From positions 38,356,964-38,420,963 of the forward strand of contig CM059556.1 in assembly GCA_030386875.1 (NCBI GenBank): a DNA stretch of 64,000 nt, written 5' to 3'. Positions 17,390 through 58,865 of the stretch are shown here, piece by piece. Numbering within the stretch: position 1 is the stretch's first letter; every line of letters begins with the position of its first letter. The notes beneath the pieces are model-generated. The model did no database searches. It saw nothing but the letters and a program-made list of their open reading frames with translations, and had not been told where the DNA came from. This stretch comes from Morinoia aosen (Eukaryota > Arthropoda > Malacostraca > Amphipoda > Talitridae). The position numbers and the translations under genes were made by a program.

Positions 17390-17512
17390 CAGTGCTGCAT
17401 TAACCCAAGGCATTGGAGTCGCGTGCGTCCATACTGCCTCTCCAAGCGGAGTTGCTTGCTATGGGTACTGTATATACAATATACATGGTACACATCTGCT
17501 GTGGGTACTGTA
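17390..17512. repeat. Diverged repeat hosting the transposon, left flank
   Basis: GGGTACTGTATA and CATGGTACACATCTGCT are repeated. The same block resumes at 19007 (ACATGGTACATGTCTGCTAT) on the other side of the transposon, so the empty site can be inferred as one continuous repeat with a single TA at the junction. Confidence 0.7.
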
Positions 17513-17680
17513 TACAGGGTGTTTCAAAAATACACGGCATAATTTCAGGTATGTATTTCCCACATGTAGACAATCAAAATAGTTCATTACAACATATGTC
17601 CGGAAATGCTTCATTTCCGAGTTATGGCCTTCACAACATTGAAATTCACCGGAACGTTTTTCTTTCCGCAGGTCGTTGCC
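17513..17680 (+). repeat. Left terminal inverted repeat of the DD41D transposon
   Basis: 168-bp arm starting TACAGGGTG and ending GGTCGTTGCC. It matches the complement of 18839-19006 throughout by eye. Arms this long are unusual for classical mariner (about 30 bp) and may carry more than one transposase binding site. Confidence 0.9.
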
Positions 17681-17769
17681 GTCAAAGGACACATTAAGAG
17701 GGCACTCTGACAGATCATTCCTAGGCGAAGGTTAAATTCAGTGTTGTGTTTGGCGTTCGACTGTGTGTC

Positions 17770-18837
17770 ATGTACACAAATCAGGAGCTGGCAGAGATGC
17801 ACTTGATCTACGGTAAGGCAGACGGCAATGCTGCGCTGGCTCGTCGTTTGTACCAGGAGAGGTACCCACAGCGACAATGTCCAGATCGGAAGACATTTGT
17901 AAGTCTCCATCAGCGTCTGTGCGAGTATGGAAAATTTGACTCTCCTGGATTGGGAAGGGGACGACCAAGATCTACAACTCCAGAAGAACAGGAGGAGATT
18001 CTGGAGATTGTGAACAGAACTCCTTCTATCAGCACACGAAGGTTAGCGTTGCAAGTGAATGTTCCCCATACGACTGTCTGGAGACTGCTGAAAGAGTATC
18101 AATTGTATCCTTACCATTTGCAACGTGTACAGGCGCTGTCACCAGCAGATTACCCTGCACGAGTTAGGTACTGTCAGTGGTTCTTGCAGCAATGTGCTGC
18201 AAATCCGAACTTTCCTGCCTTAGTATTATTTACAGATGAAGCACAGTTCACACGAGATGGCATAACAAATCTCCACAATCAGCATGTATGGGCGTATGAA
18301 AACCCAAATGCAACTGTTGTATCTCATCACCAGGTGCGGTTCTCCCTCAACATGTGGGCCGGTATCATTGGTGATCGGTTAGTTGGACCCCATGTACTTG
18401 TAAACAGACTTACGGGGCAGGCGTACACAAACTTCCTGGAAAACATCATACCTGATGTTTATGACGACACTCCACTGATCGATCGTCAGCACGCTCACTT
18501 CTTGCATGACGGCGCTCCTGCACACTTCAGTCGTACGGCTCGCCGGTACTTGGATCGAAGATTTCCTGATCGATGGATAGGTAGAGGTGGCCCAATTGCT
18601 TGGCCTCCACGCTCACCTGATCTGAACCCTCTCGATTTCTACTTGTGGGGCCATTTAAAATCATTGGTTTATTCGTCTCCGGTGCCTGATTTGGAATCCC
18701 TTCGGAATCGAATTGTGGCACGCTCTGAGGACATACGCAACATTCCTGGAGTGTGGGATCGTGTTCGCAGGTCAATGAGACATCGATGTGAGGTCTGTAT
18801 TCAAGCAGGAGGTGGTCATTTTGAACATCTTCTGTAA
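17770..18837 (+). CDS. Tc1/mariner-type transposase, DD41D
   Basis: Predicted 355-residue nuclear transposase that would bind the element's terminal repeats and catalyse cut-and-paste transposition into TA. The first ATG of the open frame is at 17770; the frame is open a little further upstream but without an ATG. Residues 1-60 form an N-terminal helix-turn-helix of the type often annotated DUF4817 in insects. A GRGRPR hook follows near residues 62-67, then a second helix-turn-helix around 70-115 (TPEEQEEILEIV, STRRLALQVNVPHTTVWRLL). The DDE/D catalytic triad is visible as D156 (LFTDEAQF), D247 (LHDGAPAHF) and D289 (RSPDLNPLDFYLWG), with 41 residues between the last two. Mariner has 34, so this fits the rosa-like DD41D group. 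No frameshift or internal stop. Expression would depend on the left inverted repeat or host sequence; no promoter motif is obvious. Confidence 0.93.
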   Translation: MYTNQELAEMHLIYGKADGNAALARRLYQERYPQRQCPDRKTFVSLHQRLCEYGKFDSPGLGRGRPRSTTPEEQEEILEIVNRTPSISTRRLALQVNVPHTTVWRLLKEYQLYPYHLQRVQALSPADYPARVRYCQWFLQQCAANPNFPALVLFTDEAQFTRDGITNLHNQHVWAYENPNATVVSHHQVRFSLNMWAGIIGDRLVGPHVLVNRLTGQAYTNFLENIIPDVYDDTPLIDRQHAHFLHDGAPAHFSRTARRYLDRRFPDRWIGRGGPIAWPPRSPDLNPLDFYLWGHLKSLVYSSPVPDLESLRNRIVARSEDIRNIPGVWDRVRRSMRHRCEVCIQAGGGHFEHLL

Positions 18838-18838
18838 T

Positions 18839-19006
18839 GGCAACGACCTGCGGAAAGAAAAACGTTCCGGTGAATTTCAATGTTGTGAAGGCCATAACTC
18901 GGAAATGAAGCATTTCCGGACATATGTTGTAATGAACTATTTTGATTGTCTACATGTGGGAAATACATACCTGAAATTATGCCGTGTATTTTTGAAACAC
19001 CCTGTA
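18839..19006 (-). repeat. Right terminal inverted repeat of the DD41D transposon
   Basis: 168-bp arm running from GGCAACGACC to CACCCTGTA, the reverse complement of 17513-17680. The transposase stop codon TAA at 18835-18837 sits immediately before it. Confidence 0.9.
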
Positions 19007-19210
19007 TACATGGTACATGTCTGCTATGGGTCCAGTCCACAGGCCTGTACAATCTGCGTCCTATGGCATAATTCATCTAATTCATGCACCAACTGCCAAC
19101 TATGAGTACAATTTGTGCGTCCATACGTCTGCTATGGGAACAATCTATGTAAAGTTAGTGTCTGCTATGGTTCCTATCTCCTACTACAAGCAAGAGTACG
19201 AAGTCAATTA
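19007..19210. repeat. Diverged repeat hosting the transposon, right flank
   Basis: Continuation of the left-flank repeat: GTCTGCTATGGG or close variants occur at about 19018, 19126 and 19160. No gene. Confidence 0.6.
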
Positions 19211-50016: not shown

Positions 50017-50394
50017 AGAATCCACGTCGTTGCAGCGGTACAGTTAACAGCGCAAGTTCTACCGTTGACTTGGCATCTGCAACAAAAAATGTCTTCAAAA
50101 ATATTCAATAAATATCCGAGTTTAGGATATTTAAACAACTCACATCGTCGCAGCAGTACAGTAAACAGCGCAAGTTCTTCCGATGATCCGTCCACGCTAC
50201 GCGAATTGTTACGCAAAGCTCGTAGCGGCACGATGGTCATGGGGACAGTGCCGGCCAAAGAAAAACAGTTTATCCCCAAAAAAGATGATACAAAAACCAT
50301 TTTTGGTTTTTAAAATATCTCATGATAAAATCTATAGTTACATACACACATGGAGACCGTAATACCCTCGTTAAAAGTAGCGGTTATTCATCAA
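50017..50394. other. Spacer with a short reiterated block
   Basis: CACGTCGTTGCAGCGGTACA then GTTAACAGCGCAAGTTC at 50026, and a similar block at 50149, also related to 43935. An 82-codon ATG frame (50065) is unrecognised and not called. Confidence 0.45.
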
Positions 50395-51667
50395 AATACC
50401 CACAGCACCACAACACCCACACAGCACCACAACACCCACACAGCACCACAACACCCACACAGCACCACAACACCCACACAGCACCGCAACACCCACACAG
50501 CACCGCAACACCCACACAGCACCGCAACACCCACACAGCACCGCAACACCCACACATCACCACAACACCCACACAGCACCGCAACACCCACACAGCACCG
50601 CAACACCCACACAGCAACACAACACCCACACAGCACCGCAACACCCACACATCACCACAACACCCACACAGCACCGCAACACCCACACAGCACCGCAACA
50701 CCCACACAGCACCGCAACACCCACACATCACCACAACACCCACACAGCACCGCAACACCCACACAGCACCGCAACACCCACACAGCACCGCAACACCCAC
50801 ACATCACCACAACACCCACACAGCACCGCAACACCCACACAGCACCGCAACACCCACACATCACCACAACACCCACACAGCACCGCAACACCCACACAGC
50901 ACCGCAACACCCACACAGCAACACAACACCCACACAGCACCACAACACCCACACAGCACCACAACACCCACACAGCACCACAACACCCACACAGCACCAC
51001 AACACCCACACAGCACCGCAACACCCACACAGCACCGCAACACCCACACAGCACCGCAACACCCACACATCACCACAACACCCACACAGCACCGCAACAC
51101 CCACACATCACCACAACACCCACACATCACCACAACACCCACACATCACCACAACACCCACACAGCACCGCAACACCCACACAGCACCACAACACCCACA
51201 CAGCACCACAACACCCTCACAGCACCACAACACCCACACAGCACCACAACACCCACACAGCACCACAACACCCACACAGCACCACAACACCCACACAGCA
51301 CCACAACACCCACACAGCACCACAACACCCACACAGCACCACAACACCCACACAGCACCACAACACCCTCACAGCGCCACAACACTCTCACAGCACCACA
51401 ACACCCACACAGCACCACAACACCCACACAGCATCACAACAACCACACAGCACCACAACACCCTCACAGCACCACAACACCCTCACAGCACCACAACACC
51501 CACACAGCACCAAAACACCCACACAGCACCACAACACCCACACAGCACCACAACACCCACACAGCACCACAACACCCACACAGCACGACAACACCCACAC
51601 AGCACCACAACACCCACACAGCACCACAACACCCACACAGCACCACAACACCCACACACCACCACAA
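50395..51667. repeat. 19-bp minisatellite (CACCACAACACCCACACAG), about 67 copies
   Basis: GCACCGC and CATCACC variants are frequent in the left half and nearly absent from 51180 to 51660; CCCTCAC variants cluster at 51210, 51365-51400 and 51460-51490. The frame-independent peptide cycle produces frames of about 450 codons that are not genes. Confidence 0.97.
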
Positions 51668-52522
51668 CACACACTCAATGGTTGCAAATACCCGCTAGCC
51701 TATATAGTCACGGTGACAGGACGCATTGCACCTTCACGGCGAATATCGCACGCATCTTATCTCACGCGATAACCAACCCATACGACTACAGGGGAGGAAT
51801 ATCTGGGAGGGTATGTTTACTGCTGGATATCTCTGCTGCCACTGTATGAGAGTAGCACCAGAAGCTGAACTTCTGGTGTGTAGGCGCAGCCATTTCCACA
51901 GTCGAGTTGTATTAAATGACAAATAACAATAATGAGGGGTGTTGATACGATCAACATTATAAATGACACAAAGACAGCAGCAACATAATCTGTCCATCCT
52001 ATATCATACCTACGAAAAAATAAAACCTCCCTATGTGGAGAGCTGGAAAAGCGTTCGTGATGTTAGCTTTTTTGTTTAGTTTACCAGATTTTGTACTATT
52101 TGAAATTGTCAATCATGTTTGATCACCCAGTACCACTGCATAATGAAGTCCACGGTAAAGCAAGGTCTCACTAAAAATCACACAAGCGATAGTACCTGTG
52201 AGAATTATGTACCTGCCAACATAAAACAGCTTCTGCAACGCACAATAGCTGACAGGTAATTAACTTTGCAACGAACAATTGCCAATATTTACATATAATT
52301 ATTTATGCGGTAGCAATTCACAGCAGGAATGTCACACGGACGGTAAACAGGATACCAGCGCGTCGTGACGTCATTTCTCTTAGAAGGCAACCGTGAGCAA
52401 AAACATGCGGTGGTCGTGCATAAAGCACGAAGCTGGGCATCGACCTGGGCATACCAGATCAGCTGATCGAGTTCAAGGCCGCGTTCCAGGCCATATGAGC
52501 TCTCGAGTACTCGATACTTGTG
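51668..52522. other. Unassigned spacer with dispersed repeat C copy 2
   Basis: 51870-52010 matches 49240-49330; a 40-bp insertion at 51921-51960 is flanked by AAATGAC. The rest is unassigned. Confidence 0.6.
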
Positions 52523-56704: not shown

Positions 56705-57735
56705 TCACATTTGGTAAACTGGATACGAGAACGTTGCCAAAATGACCGACAATTTTGATTTTGGAAATGAATTTTATTTAAATTCAATGAAATAATGAAA
56801 TAAATACAGATTTCCTAAAACAACACTAAAAGAATAGGAAGTAGAAAGGCCACGCAGTTCAATGAAAAATAGTTCTATCCATAAACTTACAGCTATAGCT
56901 TAAAAAACACACACAAATTCAAAACGAACTGCATGGGCCTATCGGTAAGAAACACAGCGAAATTTTGCGCAACGCATAACGGCAACCACGACACATGTTA
57001 TGCAAACCTCCAATTATGTCCAGTAACCATGTTCATAAACCCTATTTCCAGAGACGATAACTTCATGAAAAAACGCCAGAAACAACGTTAGGGGGATGAT
57101 TATTGATAATTACTAAATTATTGGGTAATAATTAGGTAGGTACAACGAACAAGGTGCGGGCAAGAAGGAGGGCGGTTGCACTTGGTGCGGTTGAGGCGCG
57201 CTCGATTTTCTTCAATGAGCCATGCATCATACACAGGCTAGCTACAGAATAAGTAACTTTTGATGAACGTGAGCTATTGATACCACTGATAAAAAGGTAC
57301 AAATTACCAAAATTGGCCAAAATTCAAATATAATTATTTGAAATGTAACGAGTGAAAAAATACCCCGCGTTACCAATTTCCTGGAATGTAACAAGTGGTA
57401 AAAAAATACCACATGAAACAAGTTCTTTAGAATATAACACCTGGTGGATGTCAACATGTGACAATAACAAACACCTAAGGCTAAAACTAAACAGAAAATT
57501 CGAACGGTTAAATACCACATATTTTTTCAACAATCAAAAGATTGTTTTGAAGTTTATCACGGTTACCTTCACTATTGGCAAATTGTAGGATTAAAAAATG
57601 AGTAAGTAAATACAAAACTTTTCAAAACTTGAGAATAGACTTGAGAGTTTGGTCAGTTTCTTGTGACACATAAATTGATAGATAATGACAGACCCTACAA
57701 TGGTCCCATACAGGAATGGAGCGACTTGAATGTGA
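56705..57735. other. Presumed intronic or intergenic DNA
   Basis: AT-rich. Around 57345-57430, GTAACGAGTGAAAAAATACC- and GTAACAAGTGGTAAAAAAATACC-like blocks recur two to three times. No gene recognised. Confidence 0.4.
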
Positions 57736-58355
57736 ACTTACCTGAGGCAGGATATTTATTACCTCATGTCTGATGAATTAATTCTTAGAACAAAGTGACC
57801 ACAGAAGTAGTAGGAGGTAAATTAGGAGCTAACTTCCAACCTACCTTGGGCAGTCTCTCATCTCTGGAGACATGAATTAATTCTTTGAATAAAGTGATCA
57901 CAGAAGTATCGGGCTAACTTGATAGTAGACTTTAAACATGCCTAGGGCAGCTTCTTGTCAGATGAATAATTCCTTGGTATAAGCTGATCACCAAAGTAGA
58001 AGGCAAATTAGAAAGACAATTCTACACTTACCTTGGGCAGCCTCATGTGAGATGAATAATTTCGAAGTACATACACACTGATCACAAAAGCAGAAAGCAA
58101 ATTTTGCACCTACCCTTAGGAGCTTCATTTCAAACAAATAATTCCTTAGTATAAACTGACCACACAAGTAGAAAGCAAATTTTGCACCTACCCTAAGGAG
58201 CTTCATGTCAAACAAATAATTCCTTAGTACAAACTGATCACACAAGTAGAAAGCAAATCATGCAGCTACTTTGAGCAGCTTCATGTCAAACAAATAACTT
58301 GTATAATCTGATCATAAAAGTAGAAGGCAAATTAGGAAGCCAATTTTAAGCTCAC
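57736..58355 (-). repeat. Intronic tandem array of seven diverged copies of the exon-end/splice-donor segment
   Basis: Immediately 3' of the exon, the minus strand holds seven further copies of a 78-103 bp segment. Each carries a relative of the exon's last bases (AAGCTGCCCAAG) followed by a donor-like hexamer. Donor-like junctions fall near 58269, 58191, 58113, 58031, 57941, 57844 and 57741; those at 58031 and 57741 are consensus (AAG or CAG then GTAAGT). The copy at 57941 keeps GACAAGAAGCTGCCC, identical to the exon. Five copies also carry a pyrimidine-rich stretch ending GATCAG or GGTCAG upstream, resembling a 3' splice site, so each could define a mini-exon of about 40-46 nt. The copies are divergent, implying an old duplication. 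Confidence 0.75.
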
Positions 58356-58360
58356 CTTGG
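58351..58360 (-). promoter_or_regulatory. 5' splice site of the minus-strand exon
   Basis: Minus-strand CCAAG then GTGAG, matching the metazoan donor consensus, at a codon boundary and just before an in-frame stop in the intron. Confidence 0.6.
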
Positions 58361-58865
58361 GCAGCTTCTTGTCTCTGGCCTGAGACTTGAGAGTATCTCC
58401 GTTCATCTTGAGACCCTGGTACTGCCGCACGTCTCCGCTGGGTCGCCCTGTGCCCGGCACAATCCCTCCTGTGGCGGACAGACGTGAGACGCTGGATGTG
58501 GTGTTGCTGGCAGGTGCAGAGGTAGTTGCAGAGGTGGTGGTGGCAGTTCTTGAGGTGGTGGTCTCTTGTTTAGGTTTGGGGCTTGTGTTCTTGAGATTGG
58601 CAGAGTTTTCAACTTGAGGGGCAGGTCTGGGAGTGGACAAAGGAACGGATGATGAGGAGGAGGAACAGTTACCACCAGAAGAAGCAGCGCTGCTCACTCT
58701 TGGAAGACTGCCCGCAGGATTTGAAGTGAGCGTGCCGCTGCTGCTGCTGCTGCTGTTGCATGGTGCTGTTGTACGAGGCTGCTGTGGTTGAGGTGCAGCT
58801 GCGGCTGAGGGTGTGCTGGATGCTGCAGCACTGCCCGAGTCTCCTGAGGATGATCCTCCATTCAT
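58356..58865 (-). CDS. Coding exon of an unrecognised Ser/Thr/Ala-rich protein (partial gene)
   Basis: Reading the minus strand, an ATG at 58865 in good context (A at -3) opens exactly 170 codons to a consensus 5' splice site at 58356/58355 (CCCAAG then GTGAGC), leaving phase 0. Read-through would add only VSLKLAS before a stop, which supports splicing. The protein starts MNGGSSSGDSGS and is low complexity to about residue 130 (Ser, Thr, Ala, Pro, Gln). It ends in a less repetitive charged segment, GDVRQYQGLKMNGDTL then KSQARDKKLPK. I do not recognise the family; the composition resembles disordered N-termini of nuclear regulatory proteins, which is only an inference. The frame stays open upstream of the ATG without another ATG. 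The rest of the gene must lie below 57.7 kb or outside the window. The poly-Ser tract is encoded partly by a GCT/GCA-type triplet run near 58738-58757. Confidence 0.6.

Follow-up and report, generated by a model that had tools for sequence, protein, structure and literature searches.

Does a coding exon that is followed, within its own intron, by several copies of its own 3′ end and donor owe these copies to a function in splicing, or are they a by-product of the way in which the surrounding genome duplicates itself? The question is raised by an exon on the minus strand of a 64,000-nucleotide stretch of the amphipod Morinoia aosen (the whole of which is hereafter the window), for which an earlier note had described seven repeated exon-end/donor copies and had proposed a possibly novel splice-control arrangement, made either of decoy or alternative 5′ splice sites or of a ladder of mini-exons of about 40 nt. 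From the analysis presented here, we consider it likely that the array is a donor-side mirage and a neutral by-product of tandem duplication, with the proximal donor of the exon in use.

The open frame that holds the exon extends over 197 codons from stop to stop, a length that is equalled in only 13 of 1000 shuffles, and its base composition differs between codon positions; on these grounds the frame, with its ATG at 58865, probably represents genuine coding sequence, an N-terminal exon. The predicted peptide is rich in Ser, Thr and Pro. Attempts to assign its identity gave a best Pfam match with an E value of 2.9, far below the cut-off, and no PDB match at E≤1 for the full exon, with one match (E 1.7) for its last 38 residues, and both assignments were rejected. 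A genome search for a second copy of the exon, either a retrocopy or a paralogue that might display the real junction, yielded no convincing candidate: apart from the exon there was a single match, at E 0.855. Scans of six stretches in their three minus-strand frames detected no Pfam domain, and the intron may therefore be long. Among ten open reading frames of the window, Pfam domains were found in none except the transposase frame described below, and Rfam and tRNA scans of the 64-kb window found nothing.

Beyond the exon, a donor-anchored alignment of eight units (Table 1) delineates an array in which about 18 nt of the exon end, the donor and about 60–80 nt of the intron are repeated, with seven donor-anchored intronic copies located 3′ of the exon and named here by the coordinates of their donors. 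The units are 78–103 bp long, and their start-to-start spacings (86, 78, 78, 82, 90, 97 and 103) agree with the 78–103 bp given previously. In a self-BLAST of the array, 504 aligned columns are 73% identical (E 1.8e-81).

Table 1. Coordinates of the exon, the array units and the associated signals (energies are U1 duplex energies in kcal/mol; shuffles are those that reach the whole-unit score)
Feature	Position	Strand	Donor	Energy	Shuffles	Remarks
Coding exon part	58865-58356	minus				510 nt, 170 codons from ATG, MNGGSSS...QARDKKLPK, phase 0 at 3′ end
Exon's own donor	58350..58358	minus	AAG|GTGAGC	-9.6		junction 58356/58355
In-frame TAA	58332..58334	minus				met on exon extension to any downstream donor
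First of five acceptor-like pyrimidine-AG boxes	58308..58331	minus				other four with G at 58234, 58156, 58078, 57984
Unit 1	58288..58373	minus				exon's last 18 nt and intron's first 68 nt, from the alignment
Unit 2	58210..58287	minus	AAA|GTAGCT at 58269	-3.2	0/1000	weak donor
Unit 3	58132..58209	minus	AGG|GTAGGT at 58191	-10.8	0/1000	
Unit 4	58050..58131	minus	AGG|GTAGGT at 58113	-10.8	0/1000	
Unit 5	57960..58049	minus	AAG|GTAAGT at 58031	-12.5	0/1000	nearest to unit 1 (80%)
Unit 6	57863..57959	minus	GC in place of GT at 57941	-2.9	0/1000	17/18 exon bases
Unit 7	57760..57862	minus	AAG|GTAGGT at 57844	-10.3	0/1000	exon match of 23 nt
Unit 8, degenerate	57666..57759	minus	CAG|GTAAGT at 57741	-12.1		placed by register; profile E 0.34 over the window
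Possible unit 9, degenerate	57561..57665	minus	lost			far end arbitrary; located at ~57647

The homology of the units was assessed by local alignment of each copy to the 94 nt of unit 1, judged against 1000 dinucleotide shuffles. The copies at 58269, 58191, 58113, 58031, 57941 and 57844 score above every shuffle, and the observation of repeated exon-end/donor copies holds, the similarity of these six being better than that of shuffled sequence; the seventh, at 57741, has a whole-unit score that is not significant, as 405 of the 1000 shuffles reach it, and its place in the array is given by register alone. When only the last 60 nt of the exon were compared with the copies, none of 2000 shuffles equalled the copies at 58269, 58031, 57941 and 57844, and 29, 227 and 1598 did so for those at 58191, 58113 and 57741, respectively. 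Thus, four of the seven copies are significant on exon-derived sequence alone, and the remaining ones rely on the intron part. The exon match is longest in the copy at 57844 and does not exceed 18 nt in any other. A copy keeping 15 of 15 exon bases had also been pointed out, a description that suits the copy at 57941 in its exon part and not in its donor, which is GC rather than GT.

Units 1–7 are mutually 61–88% identical, with 43–58% identity of units 8 and 9 to the rest, and the possible unit 9 shows a weak similarity to unit 6 that 17 of 2000 shuffles reach. As units 1–7 are only 61–88% alike, the array is old. A block of 12 nt is present in units 1, 5, 6 and 7 and absent from units 2–4, which are 78–88% alike among themselves. 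In the 1.99-Gb, 29-contig assembly, a search that skips simple repeats found the array at this single place at E≤0.001. The genome yields 93 matches to the cuticle domain Chitin_bind_4, whereas a search for the insect odorant-receptor family 7tm_6 at E≤1e-5 gave none, a zero that does not by itself demonstrate absence, as no control genome gave a signal. Cuticle-domain families being a mark of arthropods and 7tm_6 one of winged insects, the domain content identifies an arthropod with good confidence and, with moderate confidence, one that is not an insect.

Arrays of this kind are known from amphioxus, where minisatellite-like tandem duplications of exon boundaries, termed mirages, have been reported in Adh3, the globin genes BflGb6 and BflGb9, troponin C and PGBD5 (PMC3087553, PMC3902484), and where RT-PCR suggested regular splicing (PMC3087553); new introns have been suggested to originate from them (PMC3087553, PMC3902484). 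As these reports describe them, the amphioxus mirages share with the window array tandem units that span the exon-intron boundary and intronic copies, many of which carry AG/GT signals. They occur on the donor or the acceptor side, with units of 10–160 bp and imperfect copies in PGBD5 (PMC3087553, PMC3902484). In the window, the unit includes exon bases across the boundary (in six of seven copies for the whole unit, and in four for the exon part), the intronic copies carry six GT, one GC and five acceptor-like YAG, and the unit length of 78–103 bp falls in the minisatellite range, so that, as judged from sequence, the array has the structural features of mirages. It differs from those of amphioxus in its arthropod host, in its donor-side position with at least seven copies, in its higher divergence (units 1–7 at 61–88% identity, compared with the 81–100% given for BflGb6) and in having several copies that are predicted to pair with U1 more strongly than the authentic donor does. 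The mirages described in PMC3087553 and PMC3902484 come from lancelets only, and a narrow literature search found no arthropod mirage in print; the novelty here lies in the group to which the host belongs and in how frequent these arrays are in an arthropod genome (five to seven of 60 kinase exon boundaries, see below), the kind of array being already known. Splice-site-like sequence is also copied in intron gain by tandem genomic duplication, as described for the AGGT proto-splice site, the Rogers model and the Drosophila cases of Lehmann et al. 2010 (PMC3443670, PMC2891723). In such intron gain, a duplicated coding segment gives rise to a new intron, whereas in the window both the boundary that was copied and the intron that took up the copies already existed. 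Ordinary intronic minisatellites, which fill much of the window and of the 200 kb downstream, are likewise arranged head to tail, but the window array, unlike them, takes in exon sequence and a splice site, and its units (61–88%) are less alike than those of most window arrays of at least ten copies (mostly 87–99% matches).

Five of the intronic copies are predicted to pair with U1 more strongly (-10.3 to -12.5 kcal/mol) than the exon's own donor. There are, as the earlier note held for at least two, GTAAGT donors in the array, exactly two in number (58031 and 57741), and the latter matches the consensus at all nine positions, the only such donor among the 9205 GT sites on both strands of the window. 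GT is kept in six of seven intronic copies, against 4.4 expected (P 0.17), or in six of eight against 4.7 (P 0.26) when unit 9 is included, which fits decay, since GT has been kept about as often as the divergence predicts. In units 1–7, the mean identity is 68% in the donor columns and 71% in the remaining intron, and of 70 windows of nine columns, 51 equal or exceed the donor window in conservation. With other subsets of units, the windows as conserved as the donor number 20 of 70 (units 2–8), 35 of 70 (units 2–7) and 49 of 82 (units 1, 5, 6 and 7). Clear extra conservation of the donor columns is therefore not supported, being absent in units 1–7 and dependent on the subset, and this dependence of the outcome on the units compared slightly lowers our confidence in the by-product reading. 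The five acceptor-like sites noted earlier are all there as YAG, and under a heuristic matrix they rank in the top 1–3% of the 7101 AG sites of the window. Among 62 windows of 17 columns in the unit, moreover, the acceptor-like box is matched in conservation by none but itself; as its AG is gone in units 6 and 7, we do not take this as a kept function.

Regulated use of the copies as alternative or decoy 5′ splice sites, in which U1, bound to downstream donors of greater strength, would hold up splicing or redirect it and extension of the exon would lead to an early stop and less protein, appears unlikely, despite the strength of the donors at 58031 (8/9 consensus positions) and 57741, the likewise lower energies of those at 58191, 58113 and 57844, and the fact that an extended exon would reach the TAA after seven codons. 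The locus also stands out in that the copies at other arrays are weaker than, or equal to, their true donors (see below). The sequence does offer possible decoys or alternative sites, with GT in six of seven copies and five better predicted U1 targets, but the donor columns lack clear extra conservation, a good donor has been lost in the copies at 58269 and 57941, and normal splicing is what has been reported for amphioxus mirages (PMC3087553). The wider proposal of a novel splice-control arrangement finds no support, as the donors of units 1–7 are not specially conserved, GT retention is at the divergence expectation, an extended exon would run into the TAA, consecutive mini-exons would leave room for very short introns only, similar arrays exist at other exons and the kind is known from amphioxus. 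A ladder of mini-exons of 38–46 nt, each formed by a tgatcAG box and a copied donor, with no more than one of them included in a transcript, seems to us very improbable. It is favoured by the high rank of the five boxes and by two members of 42 nt each (58233-58192 and 58155-58114) that are open in the frame of the exon, but the 38- and 46-nt members shift the frame, phase-0 stops lie in the 38-nt member and in the fifth one (42 nt, ending at 57942), and the AG is gone in units 6 and 7. Moreover, the distances from each donor to the neighbouring AG are 36–50 nt, so that consecutive mini-exons would require introns of that size, which are short for animals, and the ladder in the form first proposed is not sustained.

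The strong donor at 57741 might also act as a recursive splice site (a zero-length exon) within a long intron, as CAG|GTAAGT follows CCTGCCT there and is the sole YAG|GTRAGT on either strand of the window, and the intron may indeed be long. Its acceptor side is mediocre (11% of the AG sites of the window score as well) and it is placed only 614 nt from the exon, and we give this reading the slightest of chances. Finally, the array could be the seed of a future intron or exon, in accordance with the model proposed for the amphioxus globins, in which such arrays supply AG/GT pairs for recruitment. The report that puts this model forward also describes degenerate repeats in a putatively gained intron (PMC3087553), and tandem genomic duplication is presented in PMC3443670 as the only route of intron gain with in vivo support. 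The window array, however, sits within an existing intron, and we regard this role as highly unlikely.

Whether such arrays accompany other exons was addressed in a survey of 30 loci with 32 protein-kinase exons, out of 129 kinase matches in the genome, comprising 60 splice boundaries. The loci were hand-picked as partial-domain matches, avoiding obvious duplicates (L038 and L042 proved to be near-duplicates), and their exon boundaries were placed by eye, guided by the kinase frames and the splice consensus, leaving out the L024 and L051 acceptors and the L027 and L030 donors and taking in the L041 donor, which is GC. In this sample, a small one that favours repeats having one copy under constraint, a local repeat at ≤1/1000 shuffles was found at 9 of 60 boundaries. 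The rule that further demanded at least 6 exon nt identified boundary-spanning repeats at five of the 60 (the L025, L036 and L040 donors and the L033 and L039 acceptors), all of which also pass a stricter one (0 shuffles, at least 8 exon nt). At the donors of L038 and L042 the arrays adjoin the donor with 3–4 exon nt, and counting them raises the number to 7 of 60; at the L026 donor and the L049 acceptor the repeat lies in the intron only. A coarse first look had found a self-match within 40 nt of 8 of 22 kinase exon matches, compared with 71% of 400 random segments from the 200 kb downstream of the window; the repeat it gave for L041 was not borne out at its boundary.

Nearby intron points, taken from the flanks of 18 loci, were hit in 19 of 216 cases, all 19 in L025, L036, L038 and L042, and the boundaries do not differ from them (Fisher p 1.0 for 5/60 and 0.46 for 7/60), which is as a general by-product of tandem duplication predicts. 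Compared with the repeat-rich 200 kb downstream of the window, where 117 of 300 points were hit, the boundaries are hit less often (p 1e-6 and 2e-5, respectively). At closer range, exploratory tests give a weaker signal in the opposite sense, an enrichment of repeats. Within 20 nt of the splice site, repeats occur in 8, 8 and 7 of 38 flanks (L024–L043 without L042) in three settings, against 4.3, 4.3 and 3.9 expected from circular shifts (p 0.015, 0.011 and 0.030), and within 60 nt the corresponding p values are 0.050, 0.046 and 0.071. Repeat coverage is higher at 0–240 than at 300–700 nt (11 boundaries up and 2 down of 59, the L041 donor being set aside; Wilcoxon p 0.011), in a comparison where the short flanks of L044–L053 make a match far from the exon less likely. 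Because of this enrichment close to splice sites, a uniform by-product may not explain everything. Part of it could arise by itself, as a copy under coding constraint keeps its duplicate detectable for longer, and the excess need not involve splicing, given that in Drosophila tandem repeats (microsatellites) are reported to be enriched around conserved elements (PMC3671938). A reading in which exon edges are preferred sites of local tandem duplication, about one boundary in ten having its own splice site repeated in the intron next to it, and in which the copies at the window exon, as better U1 targets than the authentic donor, take part in splicing as decoy, alternative or recursive sites, is one that we hold to be quite doubtful.

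The pattern-matched copies at the other donor arrays differ from those of the window in strength. At L025, 17 copies have predicted U1 energies of -5.1 or -3.6 against -6.8 for the true donor; the single copies at L038 and L042 have -1.5 against -5.7, that of L040 has -4.6 against -11.1, and that of L036 equals its true donor at -7.4. Among the donor arrays checked, namely that of the window and these five, several copies are stronger than the true donor only at the window locus. The long array of L025 (C1, 25.35 Mb), with a unit of about 38 bp, begins within the end of the kinase exon and repeats TATTTGA|GT in 17 copies over 700 nt, 15 of them with GTGTGG and 2 with GTGCGG. L033 and L039 are acceptor-side mirages, in which the intron end and 38 and 25 exon nt have been copied 184 and 268 nt upstream, respectively. 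L038 and L042 (C5, 17.845 and 18.572 Mb) hold the same kinase gene in two copies that share 94% identity across 2085 columns and whose donor-abutting arrays of a 27-bp-type unit measure 315 and 623 nt, respectively, in the main TRF array; such arrays thus change in length while the exon stays. Several kinase matches also form pairs that share a contig and score the same or nearly so, for example at 33.43 and 37.47 Mb of C2 and at 94.83 and 95.73 Mb of C4, which suggests that the assembly contains segmental duplications or haplotypes that were not collapsed.

Returning to the neutral donor-side mirage as the preferred explanation, the array would have originated when a segment of about 80–100 bp, made of the last 18–23 nt of the exon, its donor and the first part of the intron, underwent tandem duplication, in a genome where local duplication of this kind is widespread. 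It may then have grown in several rounds, through slippage or unequal exchange. Units 2–4, without the 12 nt common to units 1, 5, 6 and 7, look like a later local amplification. The array would have been decaying since, carrying its copies along as cryptic sites, and the exon would keep splicing from its own proximal donor, the spliceosome ignoring the copies, as in the amphioxus mirages as far as can be told. We infer this order of duplications, their neutrality and the use of the proximal donor; the homology with its boundaries, the divergence, the lack of clear extra conservation at the donors and the similar arrays at other exons are seen directly.

That mirages were found in an arthropod genome, at five to seven of 60 kinase exon boundaries, suggests that they emerge wherever minisatellites form in large numbers. 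Such a genome offers a test, at scale, of how the spliceosome keeps picking the exon-proximal donor among near-identical copies, and of whether duplicated boundaries are raw material for new introns or exons. With respect to the five other donor arrays checked, the copies that are stronger than the authentic donor are the main reason for an interest in RNA at the window locus.

The window itself is dense in tandem repeats, which in a hand-made list mask 25,578 of its 64,000 bases, with units mostly of 15–94 bp in up to 82 copies; some of these arrays are open in several frames across hundreds of codons, as at 50289-51849. It also holds a Tc1/mariner-like element (17505-19016) with an intact transposase frame of 370 aa (17725-18834; DUF4817/HTH_Tnp_Tc3_2/DDE_3) and inverted repeats identical at 176 of 176 aligned bases, with 2 gaps, and on account of the intact frame and the identical repeats this element is probably a recent insertion.
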